Program-made: the position numbers and the translations under genes | The notes under the pieces: generated by a model | What the model was told of the DNA's origin: nothing | What the model saw: only the letters and a program-made list of their open reading frames with translations | Database searches by the model: none | Shown here: piece after piece, positions 7,186-28,721 of the stretch | How positions within the stretch are numbered: the stretch's first letter is position 1 | Layout of the letters: each line of letters opens with the position of its first letter | Source: Chitinophagaceae bacterium | GTDB taxonomy: Bacteria; Bacteroidota; Bacteroidia; Chitinophagales; Chitinophagaceae | DNA length: 32,341 nt | Assembly: GCA_947442625.1 (NCBI GenBank) | Contig: CANEWJ010000014.1 | Location: 1-32,341, forward strand | Reading direction: 5' to 3'

Positions 7186-7256
7186 AGGCCACGGACGGAG
7201 TCGAACCGCCATCGAAGGTTTTGTGGACCTCTGCCTAACCCCTCGGCCACGTGACA
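7186..7256 (-). tRNA. tRNA-Cys-like gene with ACA anticodon and no U33
   Basis: The minus strand folds as a 71-nt tRNA. The acceptor strand is TGTCACG, then TG and a GCC/GGC D stem with GAGGGGTTA loop. The anticodon stem is GAGGT/ACCTT, the variable loop has 4 nt and the T stem is GGCGG/CCGTC around TTCGACT. U73 and the 4-nt variable loop are hallmarks of tRNA-Cys, and the body resembles Bacteroidota tRNA-Cys. The anticodon loop, however, reads CCACAAA rather than the expected CTGCAAA. This gives anticodon ACA (7222-7224) and C at the universally conserved U33. The first acceptor pair is a T-C mismatch, and CCA is not encoded. It is either a decaying copy or an unusual functional tRNA. A consensus promoter just upstream suggests it is transcribed. 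Confidence 0.7.
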
Positions 7257-11202: not shown

Positions 11203-12312
11203 CTAAAGTATTTTTTTTATTGCGGCAGACAGAAACTTGTCTGGATGGGCCATGGCCTCTTCTTTGGAGCCTGCCAGTGCGGTTAGTGTAACAAGCCTGT
11301 CTACGCCCATTGCATTGAGGTCTTTGATTGGCATGGAACTGTCTCCACAGATGGCATACAGTTTGGTGCCATGGGTTCTTGCATGACCAATGAGCTTGCC
11401 CAACACCTTGCCCTGAAAGGATTGCTCGTCCAGCCTTCCTTCACCAGTGATGAGGATGTCCGCTGCTGCTATTTTATCATCAAGTGAAATGGATTCGATC
11501 AGGTAATCAATCCCCGGCACCAATCTTGCACCAAGAAAAACATCGCAACCGCCACCCATTCCTCCAGCAGCACCAGCACCGGGAGCAACTTCGACAGATC
11601 TTCCAAAATACTTCATGAAAACGGTATCAAGGTGTTTCAATCCTTCGTCCAATTCGTCCACCTGCGCTGCGTCTGCGCCTTTTTGCGGCGCGTATACATG
11701 CGCTGCGCCATCAAGACCAAAAAAAGGATTGCTCACGTCATAGGCTACTGTAAAGTGAATGTCTTCAAGAAGGTCTGTTTCCGGCATGACAATTTCATTG
11801 ATGGAAGAAAGGTTCTCTCCACAGGGTTCCAGGGGATCCCCGTTCTTGTCTAGGAAGATATACCCCAATGCATCCGCCATACCAATGCCGCCATCATTGG
11901 TGGCGCTTCCTCCGATGCCCAAATAAATTTCTTTTGCCCCTCTTTTGATGGCATCCAAGATCATCAAACCTGTACCATAGCTGGATGTCTTCATAGGGTT
12001 CCGCTCATTGTCAGCAAGCAATGCCAACCCGCTTGCGGCTGCCATTTCAATATAGGCAGCAGATCCATCCTGTGAAATTTGGTAACTGGCTTTTATCTGT
12101 CTCATCAACGGGTCAACCGTCAATGCCTGCGCATCTTTGGTGCCAAAATAATGTTTGATGATGGAGGAATATCCGTCACCTCCGTCGGCCATGGGAAAAG
12201 ATTCCACCTCCGCATCGGGATATGACGCAGCAATCGCTTGTTGCATCAGCTTGCACAGTGTGATGGAGTCTATGCTGCCTTTGAATTTGTCTGGTACAAG
12301 GAGGATTTTCAT
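11203..12312 (-). CDS. glycerate kinase (GarK/GlxK family)
   Basis: This 369-residue cytoplasmic kinase phosphorylates D-glycerate. Members of this GarK/GlxK family mostly make 2-phosphoglycerate, the substrate of the enolase encoded just upstream. Family signatures are the opening ILLVPDKFKGS, PMADGGDG near residue 41, a central LGIGGSATNDGGIGMADALG, and GAAGGMGGG followed by ITGEGRLDEQS in the C-terminal half. The gene begins only 8 bp after a G-rich octamer array. Its ribosome-binding region therefore reads as C-rich repeat sequence, with no Shine-Dalgarno site. Confidence 0.94.
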   Translation of the reverse strand: MKILLVPDKFKGSIDSITLCKLMQQAIAASYPDAEVESFPMADGGDGYSSIIKHYFGTKDAQALTVDPLMRQIKASYQISQDGSAAYIEMAAASGLALLADNERNPMKTSSYGTGLMILDAIKRGAKEIYLGIGGSATNDGGIGMADALGYIFLDKNGDPLEPCGENLSSINEIVMPETDLLEDIHFTVAYDVSNPFFGLDGAAHVYAPQKGADAAQVDELDEGLKHLDTVFMKYFGRSVEVAPGAGAAGGMGGGCDVFLGARLVPGIDYLIESISLDDKIAAADILITGEGRLDEQSFQGKVLGKLIGHARTHGTKLYAICGDSSMPIKDLNAMGVDRLVTLTALAGSKEEAMAHPDKFLSAAIKKIL

Positions 12313-12319
12313 TGCTGGG

Positions 12320-12445
12320 GGTTGAGAGGTTGAGGGGTTTAAAGGTTTAGAGGTTTAAAGGTTGAGGGAGGTTGAGGGAGGTTGAAGGGGTTGAAGGGGT
12401 TGAAAGGTTTAAAGGTTTAGAGGTTTAAAGGTTGAGGGGTTGAAC
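12320..12445 (+). repeat. G-rich octamer array, 15 units
   Basis: Fifteen head-to-tail units each begin with GGTT. Eleven are exactly 8 bp (GGTTGAGA, GGTTGAGG, GGTTTAAA, GGTTTAGA and so on), two are 10 bp (GGTTGAGGGA) and two are 9 bp (GGTTGAAGG). The consensus is GGTTKARR. The trio GGTTTAAA, GGTTTAGA, GGTTTAAA occurs twice, at 12336 and 12406. The four G-runs between about 12365 and 12398 could form a G-quadruplex on the plus strand. The array abuts the glycerate kinase start and faces a second, opposite-oriented array next to eno. Confidence 0.9.
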
Positions 12446-12480
12446 TTGCCAAGCAGGGGTTGGGGGTGGTCTGAAATGTT

Positions 12481-12515
12481 TAGGGGTTTAGCGATTGATA
12501 ACCCCTAAACCCCTA
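12481..12515 (-). terminator. hairpin downstream of eno
   Basis: An 11-bp perfect inverted repeat (TAGGGGTTTAG at 12481-12491, CTAAACCCCTA at 12505-12515) encloses a 13-nt loop, about 42 bp past the eno stop. It arises where plus-oriented octamers meet minus-oriented ones. There is no T-tract after it, so it is not a standard intrinsic terminator, but it could halt or protect the eno transcript. Confidence 0.45.
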
Positions 12516-12551
12516 CACCACTCAACCCCTAAACCTCTAAACCATTAAACC
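12504..12551 (-). repeat. octamer array abutting the eno stop, opposite orientation
   Basis: Six perfect 8-bp units read on the eno sense strand as GGTTTAAT, GGTTTAGA, GGTTTAGG, GGTTGAGT, GGTGTAGG and GGTTTAGG. The first begins 5 bp after the eno stop codon. They belong to the same GGTTKARR family as 12320-12445 but lie on the other strand, so the two arrays form a large imperfect inverted repeat (for example 12334-12364 against about 12523-12555). Confidence 0.9.
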
Positions 12552-12556
12552 CCAAA

Positions 12557-13834
<1,278 letters not shown>

Positions 13835-16727: not shown

Positions 16728-18641
16728 ATGAGCTATCCATATCAGATTACGTCGTACGAGGGTTACCAGGAAGCGTGGAAGAAAAGTGTTGAAGACCCTG
16801 AAGGTTTTTGGGGCGAGGTAGCCAGCCACTTTCAATGGAAGAAGCCCTGGGACAGGGTCCTGGACTGGAACTTCAAGGAGCCTTCTGTTCAATGGTTCAA
16901 AGGCGCGCAACTCAACATTACAGAAAACTGCATCGACAGGCACCTTGCCGATAAGGCCAACCAACCTGCCATCATCTGGGAACCCAACGATCCGAATGAT
17001 CATCACCGCATGCTCACCTATGCACAGCTGCATACCAAGGTGAACCAGTTTGCCAACGTACTCAAGAACAATGGCGTCAAGAAAGGTGACCGCGTTTGTA
17101 TTTACATGGGGATGATCCCTGAGCTGGCCATCGCCGTTTTGGGCTGTGCAAGGATAGGTGCCATCCATTCTGTGATCTTCGGTGGTTTCAGTGCACAAAG
17201 CATTGCAGACCGCCTGCAGGATGCCAATGCCGAATTCATCATCACCTGCGATGGTGCCTTCCGTGGCGCCAAAGACATCCCATTGAAAAATGTGATTGAT
17301 GATGCGCTGATCAGCTGCAAATTCGTCAAACGTGTTATCGTCTATACCCATACCCGTTCTGCTGTCAGCATGATCAAGGGACGTGATGTGTGGTGGGAAG
17401 ATGAAGTGCGAAAAGTAGAAACGGCAGGCAATCCTGACTGCCCCGCAGAAACCATGGATGCAGAAGATCCGCTGTTCATTCTTTATACTTCCGGATCAAC
17501 CGGAAAACCCAAGGGTGTTGTGCATACCTGCGGCGGATACATGGTCTATACCAACTATACTTTTGTCAATGTGTTTCAATACAAGCCGCAGGAAATCCAT
17601 TTCTGCACGGCTGATATCGGCTGGATTACCGGCCATTCTTATATCGTCTACGGGCCGCTCAGTGCAGGGGCTACTTCTTTGATGTTTGAAGGGATTCCAA
17701 CCTTCCCTGATGCAGGCCGTTTCTGGGACATCATCGACAAGTTCAAGGTGAACATCCTCTACACAGCCCCTACTGCCATCAGAAGCCTGATGGCCTTCGG
17801 ACTGGGACCCTTGCAGAACAAGGACCTCAGCTCGCTTAGGGTCTTGGGTACAGTGGGTGAACCCATCAACGAAGAGGCATGGCTATGGTATGATGAACAT
17901 ATAGGAAAAAGAAAATGCCCGATTGTGGACACCTGGTGGCAGACCGAAACCGGCGGTGTACTGATCAGCAACCTGGCAGGCATCACCCCCTCCAAACCAA
18001 GCTATGCTACCCTGCCCATGCCGGGTGTGCAGCCTTTGCTGGTGGATGAGAAGGGCGTGGAAATAACAGACAATAACGTAACCGGCAACCTCTGCATCAA
18101 ATCACCCTGGCCTGCAACCCTCAGGACCACTTATGGCGACCATGAACGCTGCCGCACCAATTATTTTGCCACCTATGAGAACCTCTATTTCACGGGTGAT
18201 GGAGCCTACAGGGATGAAAATGGTTTCTACCGGATAACGGGCCGCGTTGATGACGTACTCAATGTCAGCGGACACCGTATCGGTACCGCCGAGGTGGAGA
18301 ATGCCATCAACATGCACGCAGGTGTTGTGGAAAGTGCTGTGGTAGGGTATCCGCATGACGTGAAAGGACAGGGCATCTATGCTTTTGTCATTTACAGCGG
18401 CACACATGGCGATGAGGATATGACCCGCCGCGACATCACTGCAACCGTCAGCCGCATCATCGGGCCGATTGCCAAACCGGATAAAATACAACTGGTCTCA
18501 GGATTGCCCAAGACCAGGAGTGGAAAGATCATGCGCCGCATCCTCCGCAAAATTGCTGAGAACGAGCTTGACAATATTGGCGATACATCAACACTGCTTG
18601 ATCCAGCGGTGGTGGAAGAGATTAAGCGGGGGAAGGTTTAG
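16728..18641 (+). CDS. acs: acetyl-CoA synthetase
   Basis: AMP-forming acetyl-CoA synthetase activates acetate to acetyl-CoA through acetyl-AMP in the cytoplasm. It has 637 residues and full domain structure. Seen are the AMP-binding loop YTSGSTGKPKG (253-263), WWQTETGG (403-410, with the Trp that restricts the pocket to acetate), FTGDGAYRD, the hinge region ITGRVDDVLNVSGHRIGTAEVE, and PKTRSGKIMRR with K600, the lysine acetylated for control in this family. The 93-bp spacer to the divergent transporter holds a near match (TAAATTTT, 16711-16718) to the phylum -7 element. The stop codon TAG lies inside a GGTTTAGG octamer. Confidence 0.97.
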   Translation: MSYPYQITSYEGYQEAWKKSVEDPEGFWGEVASHFQWKKPWDRVLDWNFKEPSVQWFKGAQLNITENCIDRHLADKANQPAIIWEPNDPNDHHRMLTYAQLHTKVNQFANVLKNNGVKKGDRVCIYMGMIPELAIAVLGCARIGAIHSVIFGGFSAQSIADRLQDANAEFIITCDGAFRGAKDIPLKNVIDDALISCKFVKRVIVYTHTRSAVSMIKGRDVWWEDEVRKVETAGNPDCPAETMDAEDPLFILYTSGSTGKPKGVVHTCGGYMVYTNYTFVNVFQYKPQEIHFCTADIGWITGHSYIVYGPLSAGATSLMFEGIPTFPDAGRFWDIIDKFKVNILYTAPTAIRSLMAFGLGPLQNKDLSSLRVLGTVGEPINEEAWLWYDEHIGKRKCPIVDTWWQTETGGVLISNLAGITPSKPSYATLPMPGVQPLLVDEKGVEITDNNVTGNLCIKSPWPATLRTTYGDHERCRTNYFATYENLYFTGDGAYRDENGFYRITGRVDDVLNVSGHRIGTAEVENAINMHAGVVESAVVGYPHDVKGQGIYAFVIYSGTHGDEDMTRRDITATVSRIIGPIAKPDKIQLVSGLPKTRSGKIMRRILRKIAENELDNIGDTSTLLDPAVVEEIKRGKV

Positions 18642-18650
18642 GGAGGTTGA
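18635..18650 (+). repeat. short octamer remnant overlapping the acs stop
   Basis: GGTTTAGG followed by GAGGTTGA matches the octamer family seen near eno and kbl. The TAG within the first unit is the acs stop codon. Only about two units are present, so alone it would be unremarkable; it gains weight from the two long arrays at other gene ends. The spacer after it (18651-18759) is AT-rich with no gene. Confidence 0.5.
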
Positions 18651-18759
18651 TTACCGCATATTCCAAAGAAAATGCATTAATACTATTTATACATGAGCAG
18701 TTAAACAAAATTCAATGATGCCAAAAATTTAAATAACTTGCGTTTAAATATTTATTTTT

Positions 18760-28657: not shown

Positions 28658-28721
28658 GGTTTAGGGGTGTAGAGGTTTAAGGGTTGAAAGGTTTAAGGGT
28701 GTAGAGGTTTAGGGATTGAGG
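28658..28721 (+). repeat. octamer array directly after the kbl stop, eight units
   Basis: Eight consecutive 8-bp units begin at the base after the kbl TGA, with no insertion or deletion. The order is GGTTTAGG, GGTGTAGA, GGTTTAAG, GGTTGAAA, GGTTTAAG, GGTGTAGA, GGTTTAGG, then a degenerate GATTGAGG. The first seven are arranged symmetrically (1=7, 2=6, 3=5). They belong to the GGTTKARR family found near eno and acs. Confidence 0.92.

Follow-up and report, generated by a model that had tools for sequence, protein, structure and literature searches.

STRR sequences of heterocystous cyanobacteria are degenerate short tandem repeats of heptamers that lie between genes, and REP/BIME elements are dispersed intergenic inverted repeats that are often found after genes and are accompanied by RAYT transposases. 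In general terms, the octamer arrays described here resemble the heptameric STRR sequences in being degenerate intergenic tandem repeats. They differ from REP/BIME elements in having no single palindrome, and the Y1 transposase was not found in the draft genome that carries them.

A closely similar element was described by Rehm et al. 2015 (PMC4692102), who reported heptamers (GGGAATC and GGGGA(C/T)T) in Xanthomonas and Nostoc that form dispersed, mostly intergenic, degenerate tandem repeats. The G-rich strand of these heptamers lies near the open reading frame (ORF) on its 5' side, whatever the direction of that ORF (on average 28 versus 160 nt). Many of the arrays form convergent pairs, four units are the commonest length, and fewer arrays occur between divergent genes. 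Rehm et al. were unable to assign the heptamers a role. MacGregor 2015 (PMC4679880) described direct repeats of the heptamer TAACTGA in Beggiatoaceae, cyanobacteria and some Bacteroidetes. These repeats have one orientation immediately before start codons and, in some cases, the reverse orientation after stop codons; their distribution across phyla is sporadic, and a binding protein was proposed. Short tandem repeats that hug gene edges occur here and there among the bacterial phyla, with no proven role given in the portions of the two papers considered.

The arrays described here were found in a 32,341-nt stretch of DNA (the window; contig CANEWJ010000014.1, assembly GCA_947442625.1) from a Chitinophagaceae bacterium whose genome (G000) is a draft of 2.60 Mb in 211 contigs that is 92% complete. 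In the stretches examined, the arrays are dispersed, lie at gene edges with a distinct polarity, persist at many places in sister species and have a unit length that varies genome-wide from one species to another. The placing of the G-rich strand beside its 5' neighbour ORF and the pairing of arrays that converge are common to these arrays and the heptamers of Rehm et al. 2015. The units themselves differ, as the octamer GGTKKARR has 8 bp, GG tracts and two-letter columns whereas the heptamers have 7 bp and GGG or GGGG tracts (GGGNATC type). The sister species examined here also differ in unit length (7, 8, 9 or 10), which is not reported in the portions of PMC4692102 considered. The TAACTGA repeats are a fixed heptamer that is not G-rich and is found mainly at starts, whereas the degenerate octamer occupies both edges. 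No paper on GGTKKARR was found among the open-access papers listed, and these, so far as their consulted portions go, yielded no report of a unit length that differs between sisters at kept places. The kind of element and a closely similar edge rule are already known; the different degenerate word and the unit length that varies between sisters set the present arrays apart. The initial annotation had stated that the unit matches no familiar repeat family. This is true of the unit itself, but repeats of this kind that obey much the same orientation rule have been published (PMC4692102).

Arrays of the eno–glycerate kinase spacer and the window

The spacer is bounded by the glycerate kinase gene (11203-12312, minus strand, with its start at 12312; TIGR00045 match) and by eno, which encodes enolase (12557-13828, minus strand; TIGR01060 match). 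It contains two G-rich arrays that face each other, both of which are evident on direct reading and detected by TRF. The longer array (12320-12445, plus strand) runs outward from the glycerate kinase start codon as placed by gene calls, and in the sense of that gene it is C-rich and lies in the 5' leader. All 15 of the GGTT-initial units that had been claimed for the plus strand are present, and 11 of them have 8 bp if the last is counted. The remaining four, two of 10 bp followed by two of 9 bp, form a core at 12360-12397 (plus strand) that by eye is like the 9/10-bp arrays found upstream of glycerate kinase in the relatives G012 and G009. This core is probably an older remnant, and the array looks as if octamers had grown around it. 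The same array contains a 33-nt direct repeat with copies at 12336-12368 and 12406-12438 (plus strand, direct reading), which indicates that local duplication does occur.

The shorter array (12500-12551, minus strand) runs outward from the eno stop codon. Its six units, which had been called perfect octamers, keep a perfect 8-bp register, but only three of the six follow GGTTKARR letter for letter. A hairpin of 11 bp (12478-12510, minus strand, with arms at 12478-12488 and 12500-12510; direct reading) lies at the inner edge of this array, and the two arrays together form an imperfect inverted repeat (44-nt arms, 82%), so that both of the structures noted earlier were recovered. As RNA, the spacer folds at -79.3 kcal/mol (z -6.98). 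No U-run follows the eno hairpin of G000, and the combination of GC-rich hairpin and U-run by which intrinsic terminators are recognized is absent. CRISPR loci consist of repeats of about 23-50 bp with unique spacers in between. The units seen here are direct 8-bp tandem repeats with no spacers between them and, as had been judged, are unlike CRISPR. A search of the whole window against Rfam at the gathering score gave one tRNA (7186-7256) as its sole match and none at the arrays.

Further copies had been predicted at other gene ends of the window, and two are found. An array of seven units (28658-28713, plus strand; TRF and gene calls) lies directly past the stop codon of the glycine C-acetyltransferase gene. 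A remnant of two units with 10-bp spacing (18635-18652, plus strand; gene calls) overlaps the stop codon of ORF 16728-18641, and a longer array is present at this site in the relative G009.

Dispersion, gene-edge position and polarity

A two-unit pattern (GGTTKARRGGTTKARR) has 124 exact matches in its own genome (65+59) and a 2.5-unit pattern has 35+35, while both patterns read backwards as controls have 0+0. The initial annotation had set a genome scan as the test that could refute its proposal of a dispersed element, and these counts leave that proposal standing. A 2.75-unit pattern matches 63 times in the genome of the window, once or twice each in 5 of 98 other relatives, and at all in 5 of the 394 other genomes of the rest of the class. 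One of these (G305, a distant genome of the class) has 26 matches, 25 of which are on one strand (L065, L072, L074). When named genomes were scanned with a 3.5-unit pattern, at least 114 stretches had matches, and the 80 that are listed come from Bacteroidales, Chitinophagaceae, Verrucomicrobia, Lentisphaera and others. The octamer therefore recurs sporadically in distant bacteria.

The arrays may be unevenly distributed within G000. The first 20 kb of contigs C3, C5, C8-C13 and C15-C26 have very few array matches, though such matches are common elsewhere, and this scarcity is partly due to the way the sets were chosen. One set of stretches was taken from contigs with a strict match to the 2.5-unit pattern and the other (20 stretches) from contigs without. 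Arrays are present in 32 of 153 intergenic regions in the first set and in 1 of 148 in the second, densities that are biased by this choice and not usable as a genome average. A mixed bin, with the array contigs derived from another organism, is not supported, though single contigs could still be foreign. GC3 is somewhat higher in the array stretches than in other G000 stretches. Mean identities of array versus other stretches are 88.6 versus 87.3 to G004, 92.1 versus 88.2 to G006 and 85.9 versus 84.9 to G009, with only 4-9 of 20-21 stretches alignable per relative.

The position of arrays relative to genes was determined with a simple gene caller in 41 G000 stretches, including the window, of which 21 were chosen for hits and 20 for having no strict hits. 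Arrays of two or more units are intergenic in 62 of 70 cases. Where both neighbours are present, 51 of 59 arrays are closer to the 5' neighbour of the G-rich strand (median 7 versus 152 nt; p 9e-9). This neighbour is within 30 nt of 43 of the 59 arrays, 28 at a stop codon and 15 at a start codon, and the opposite gene is within 30 nt of 10 of the 59. In the sense of the gene, G-rich units follow the stop codon, and C-rich, G-free units precede the start codon. The exceptions to the rule number 8 of 59 for arrays of two or more units and 7 of 48 for arrays of three or more with both neighbours; in some of these seven the simple gene caller seems to have missed a gene or misplaced a start, but all were retained as exceptions.

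The following comparisons were made within the 21 array stretches. An outward array is present within 40 nt of 25 of 134 stop edges and 14 of 166 start edges (p 0.01), and arrays occur in 8 of 19 convergent regions versus 25 of 131 other regions (p 0.036). The earlier suggestion of a dispersed 3'-end element is therefore half of the picture: the arrays are dispersed and linked to gene ends, but they are found at start edges as well as at stop edges. Array pairs within 320 nt are convergent in 17 cases and divergent in none. Since these stretches were chosen for hits, the polarity test was repeated in stretches of G004, G006 and G009 that were picked by contig number with arrays disregarded. 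In these sisters, 23 of 29 arrays of two or more units and 11 of 11 of three or more are closer to the 5' neighbour, and pairs are convergent in eight cases (four for three or more units) and divergent in none.

Two less direct comparisons were also made. The 80 listed loci (of at least 114 stretches) represent many organisms, and crude ORFs were used for them. After exclusion of 17 of 85 arrays that fell inside ORFs and of 14 of the 68 intergenic ones with a flank missing, 38 of 54 arrays have their C-rich end closer to a gene (p 0.004). In a test that does not depend on the unit, G-poor, C-rich windows point into the nearer gene in 60 of 71 cases in the array stretches, in 24 of 39 in other G000 stretches and in 15 of 22 in small first samples of six sisters. 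Array length in G000 peaks at four units (17 of 62 arrays, with 6 of three units), half of the stretches having been chosen for hits. No clear peak is seen in the sisters, which have five arrays of three units and four of four units.

The repeat unit and its length in sister species

The consensus of 37 arrays (175 units) is the degenerate octamer GGTKKARR. Letters were counted in 135 octamers that were themselves unconstrained and had exact units on both sides. Four columns are invariant or nearly so (G in 134 at position 1 and in 134 at position 2, T in 135 at position 3 and A in 135 at position 6). The others are mixed: T 106, G 28 and A 1 at position 4; T 103, G 30 and A 2 at position 5; G 89, A 45 and T 1 at position 7; and G 69, A 57, T 8 and C 1 at position 8. 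C accounts for 2 of the 1080 letters of these flanked octamers. The hypothesis that GGTTKARR units hold stop codons, which the 8-bp period would place in all frames, was rejected as a constraint on the unit because the letters at positions 4 and 5 are independent of each other and stop-less G-G units occur as expected (8, p 0.93).

Five of six column-pair tests look independent, the exception being positions 4 and 8 (p 0.001). Neighbouring units should be alike under simple slippage, and arrays should have long runs in common under recent copying. Identity is 0.590 between adjacent units and 0.595 between units of different arrays (p 0.61; 44 exact-unit arrays, 194 units), and no clear trace of slippage is therefore left. 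Chi-square tests in a smaller set of units (37 arrays) nevertheless gave departures for neighbouring cores (p 0.002) and for neighbouring last letters (p 0.048). Neighbours are no more alike in the sisters at period 9 (0.709 versus 0.701; 9 arrays, 31 units). Long runs common to 48 arrays at different places are not in excess of those in arrays with redealt K and R letters (longest shared run 31, with 26-42 in the shuffles; pairs of at least 26 nt, 4 versus a shuffle mean of 6.5), and recent copying between loci was not supported for these 48 arrays. Contigs C167 and C121 do have homogeneous arrays, made up of GGTTGAGG and GGTTTAGG runs. In the stretches examined, the letters of a unit look drawn largely independently for each unit.

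Among sisters whose eno locus is complete, the six nearest have eno genes of 89-92% nucleotide identity to that of the window, and the eno–glycerate kinase spacers of the sisters differ greatly. An ordinary GGGTTTAGGG...CCCTAAACCC hairpin is found after eno in G014, G030, G012 and G006, with a T-run behind it (A-interrupted in G006); this T-run is absent in G000 and G009. In G014 and G030 (L080, L083), the GGGTTTAGGG-type hairpin has a run of eight T and a stem like the array unit. By eye, the stems of all four hairpins are similar to that of the window, and arrays may, to judge from the likeness of stem and unit, be seeded by terminator stems. Upstream of the glycerate kinase start, C-rich 9/10-bp arrays are present in G012 and G009 and a short trace in G006. 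The long hairpin of the window is also present in G009, and in G004 about 20 nt separate the two genes, with no array.

Of 168 orthologous edge comparisons (84 spacers by relative), 14 have an array in G000 and 154 have none; the relative has a detected array in 9 of the 14 and in 2 of the 154 (p 4e-10 if edges are independent). The 14 belong to 8 spacers, some of which were compared with two relatives. An array in G000 with none detected in the relative accounts for five comparisons at two spacers, and one of these five comparisons shows a row by eye. The 9 of 14 is therefore a lower count, since the rule missed this row in G009 at L055:9002, which has T in its spacers. Both arms are missing in G006 at L055:2993. 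At the compared edges, the spacing is 8 in 33 of 35 cases in G000 and 9-10 in 34 of 34 in the relatives. Intergenic GTTKA cores in the array stretches of G000 are 8 apart in 121 cases and 9 apart in 15, with no clear peak in other G000 stretches (4 and 4). The corresponding counts for cores 8, 9 and 10 apart are 1, 17 and 4 in G004, 3, 26 and 15 in G006, and 1, 37 and 7 in G009.

Three-core arrays were counted at spacings 7/8/9/10 across 41 genomes of the genus. The window genome has 0/70/14/3, G009 6/0/82/19, G004 0/0/72/8, G030 0/0/59/9, G011 1/0/105/22, G006 0/0/14/14, G010 42/0/10/1, G027 68/5/172/7 and G008 23/0/0/0. The genome of the window thus accounts for 70 of the 93 period-8 matches in the genus. 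Seventeen of the 41 genomes bear arrays (at least ten matches over the four periods) and 24 are below ten; period 8 dominates in the window genome only among the 17. In most rows the backwards control has no match. Exceptions are G011 (22+5) at period 9, G038 (1+2) and G035 (3+0) at period 8, and G036 (10+5), G035 (6+4) and G008 (6+0) at period 7, and small counts in those rows are consequently not clean. The period is a species trait.

Candidate explanations for the arrays

Two kinds of enzyme were considered as makers or movers of the arrays. Neither the RAYT Y1 transposase (PF01797) nor reverse transcriptase (PF00078) has a match in the draft genomes G000, G004, G006, G009, G011, G012, G014 and G030. 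Over the 41 drafts of the genus, PF01797 is present in 9 of 17 array-bearing versus 14 of 24 other genomes (p 0.76) and PF00078 in 0 of 17 versus 5 of 24 (p 0.065). Neither tracks the arrays, and a diversity-generating retroelement or other reverse-transcriptase writer was not supported, given the same 0 of 17 array-bearing drafts.

The explanation preferred here, tentatively and with less than even confidence, is that the arrays are a selected, polar gene-boundary element that is recognized by a putative factor, with neutral repeat turnover as the main rival. The best supported reading is selection on the sequence itself at gene edges, outward in polarity and with a spacing that depends on the species. 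The arrays belong to a family of degenerate tandem repeats, dispersed over the genome, that marks gene edges with a polarity in which the C-free, G-rich strand mostly reads out of the gene. The fixed columns and the kept places would reflect selection for rows of recognition sites, the reader would be a putative trans-acting nucleic-acid-binding factor, and the preferred spacing would have shifted from 9 to 8 in the lineage of the window. Such a factor may act on transcription or nascent RNA. More speculatively, RNA leaving the gene might turn G-rich, with the result that read-out is damped and ends are protected, and might pair with a facing array if both are in one transcript. RNA entering the gene would be G-free and unstructured and could leave the start codon open.

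Several alternatives assign the function to the composition or folding of the transcript. Rho loading sites are C-rich and G-free. If the arrays control entry into genes by ending antisense or untranslated transcripts that run into them through Rho, the C-rich, G-free strand pointing into the gene at both ends, the enrichment at stop edges and in convergent regions, and the full-length rho gene of the window genome would all be accommodated. The chances of this are slim, as no rho match over the cut-off is present in the array-rich G009 (a 98% complete draft), rho is over the cut-off in 30 of 41 genomes, many of them array-free, the gene's own leader would be threatened at start edges, and the fixed T and A columns of the C-rich strand are not expected to be needed by Rho. 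It is likewise improbable that paired arrays are long RNA stems, derived from ordinary terminators, that terminate or protect transcripts. The strong fold of the eno–glycerate kinase region and the hairpins with T-runs at the same place in four sisters are consistent with such stems, but the eno hairpin of G000 lacks the T-run, in 17 of 32 array-bearing spacers all arrays point the same way, and both arms are unlikely to be in one transcript in divergent regions. In addition, the arms of one region match each other no better than foreign arms do (p 0.92), which does not favour arm-by-arm hairpin matching. Terminator-like hairpins with a T-run are found at 4 of 25 array stop edges versus 44 of 203 others (p 0.61); canonical terminators are neither depleted nor enriched, and a replacement of terminators by arrays was not supported. 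A G-quadruplex of DNA or RNA, which the initial annotation had also offered, is very improbable. The two-tetrad motif fits 49 of 51 arrays, and the four-unit peak of the window genome is like that reported for the Xanthomonas heptamers, but the sisters lack a clear peak and the three-tetrad motif is found in 7 of 51 arrays, with a mean of 9.4 and none lower in 500 shuffles of the purine letters. The three-tetrad form is accordingly not favoured at the level of sequence motif, a point on which the octamers differ from the heptamers of Rehm et al. 2015.

Neutral or nearly neutral turnover remains doubtful but is quite possible. Slippage and recombination would make the repeats and selection would only purge coding and harmful orientations, namely those that are G-rich just upstream of a start codon. 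Places would persist since repeats beget repeats, and the period would vary through differences in polymerase or repair. The similar repeats of Xanthomonas and Nostoc have been studied without a function becoming known, in the portions of PMC4692102 considered. The 33-nt duplication, the homogeneous arrays and the absence of arrays at some orthologous edges are consistent with turnover, as is the excess of C over G in the sense just before start codons, which is seen in every sampled set whether array-rich or not. Against this, neighbouring units bear no slippage signature, fixed columns with almost no decay stand beside mixed ones, most array-bearing species have one dominant period rather than an even mixture, and tolerance offers no obvious explanation for the outward orientation at stop edges. 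A selected boundary element also has evidence against it. Arrays are dispensable at some loci (the eno spacer of G004 and L055:2993 of G006), and 24 of the 41 genomes are below ten matches. Homogeneous arrays, the 33-nt duplication, the dependence of positions 4 and 8 and the two departures between neighbouring units (p 0.002 and 0.048) count against it, as do the unmatched arms (p 0.92), the unchanged terminators (p 0.61) and the 8 of 59 arrays that break the edge rule.

A stronger form of the selected-boundary reading, which is unlikely as it stands, is that gene boundaries in each species of this group are read or written by a trans-acting factor peculiar to it, which recognizes or makes rows of a degenerate word. 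A change of this factor would cause the rows to be rewritten, unit by unit and independently, to a new spacing (7, 8, 9 or 10 bp) at kept edges. The combination of kept edges and changed unit length makes the purpose of such repeats testable, since sister species can be compared for a factor whose changes match those of the spacing. The existence of a reader protein would define a system of polar marks at gene boundaries. If there is no reader, slippage as the sole source would still be questioned because neighbouring units lack a clear sign of mutual copying.

Some rows were observed away from gene edges or with other words. In G038, a row of the octamer CTTCAACC (L034:1470-1560) lies within a long frame that is open from stop to stop (988-1914), and a like case occurs in G035 (L039); the G038 row indicates that arrays can perhaps enter coding sequence when the frame permits. 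A period-9 TTCAACCCC row (L059:5571-5615) could, by eye, encode a serine/threonine-proline linker and is probably unrelated to the edge arrays. Related rows of different words (GGTTCAAA, GAGTTGAAG, GGGGTTACG and GGTTGCGG) are found in other groups (L152, L162, L168 and L195) and may point to a broader class of intergenic rows with units of 7-9 bp.
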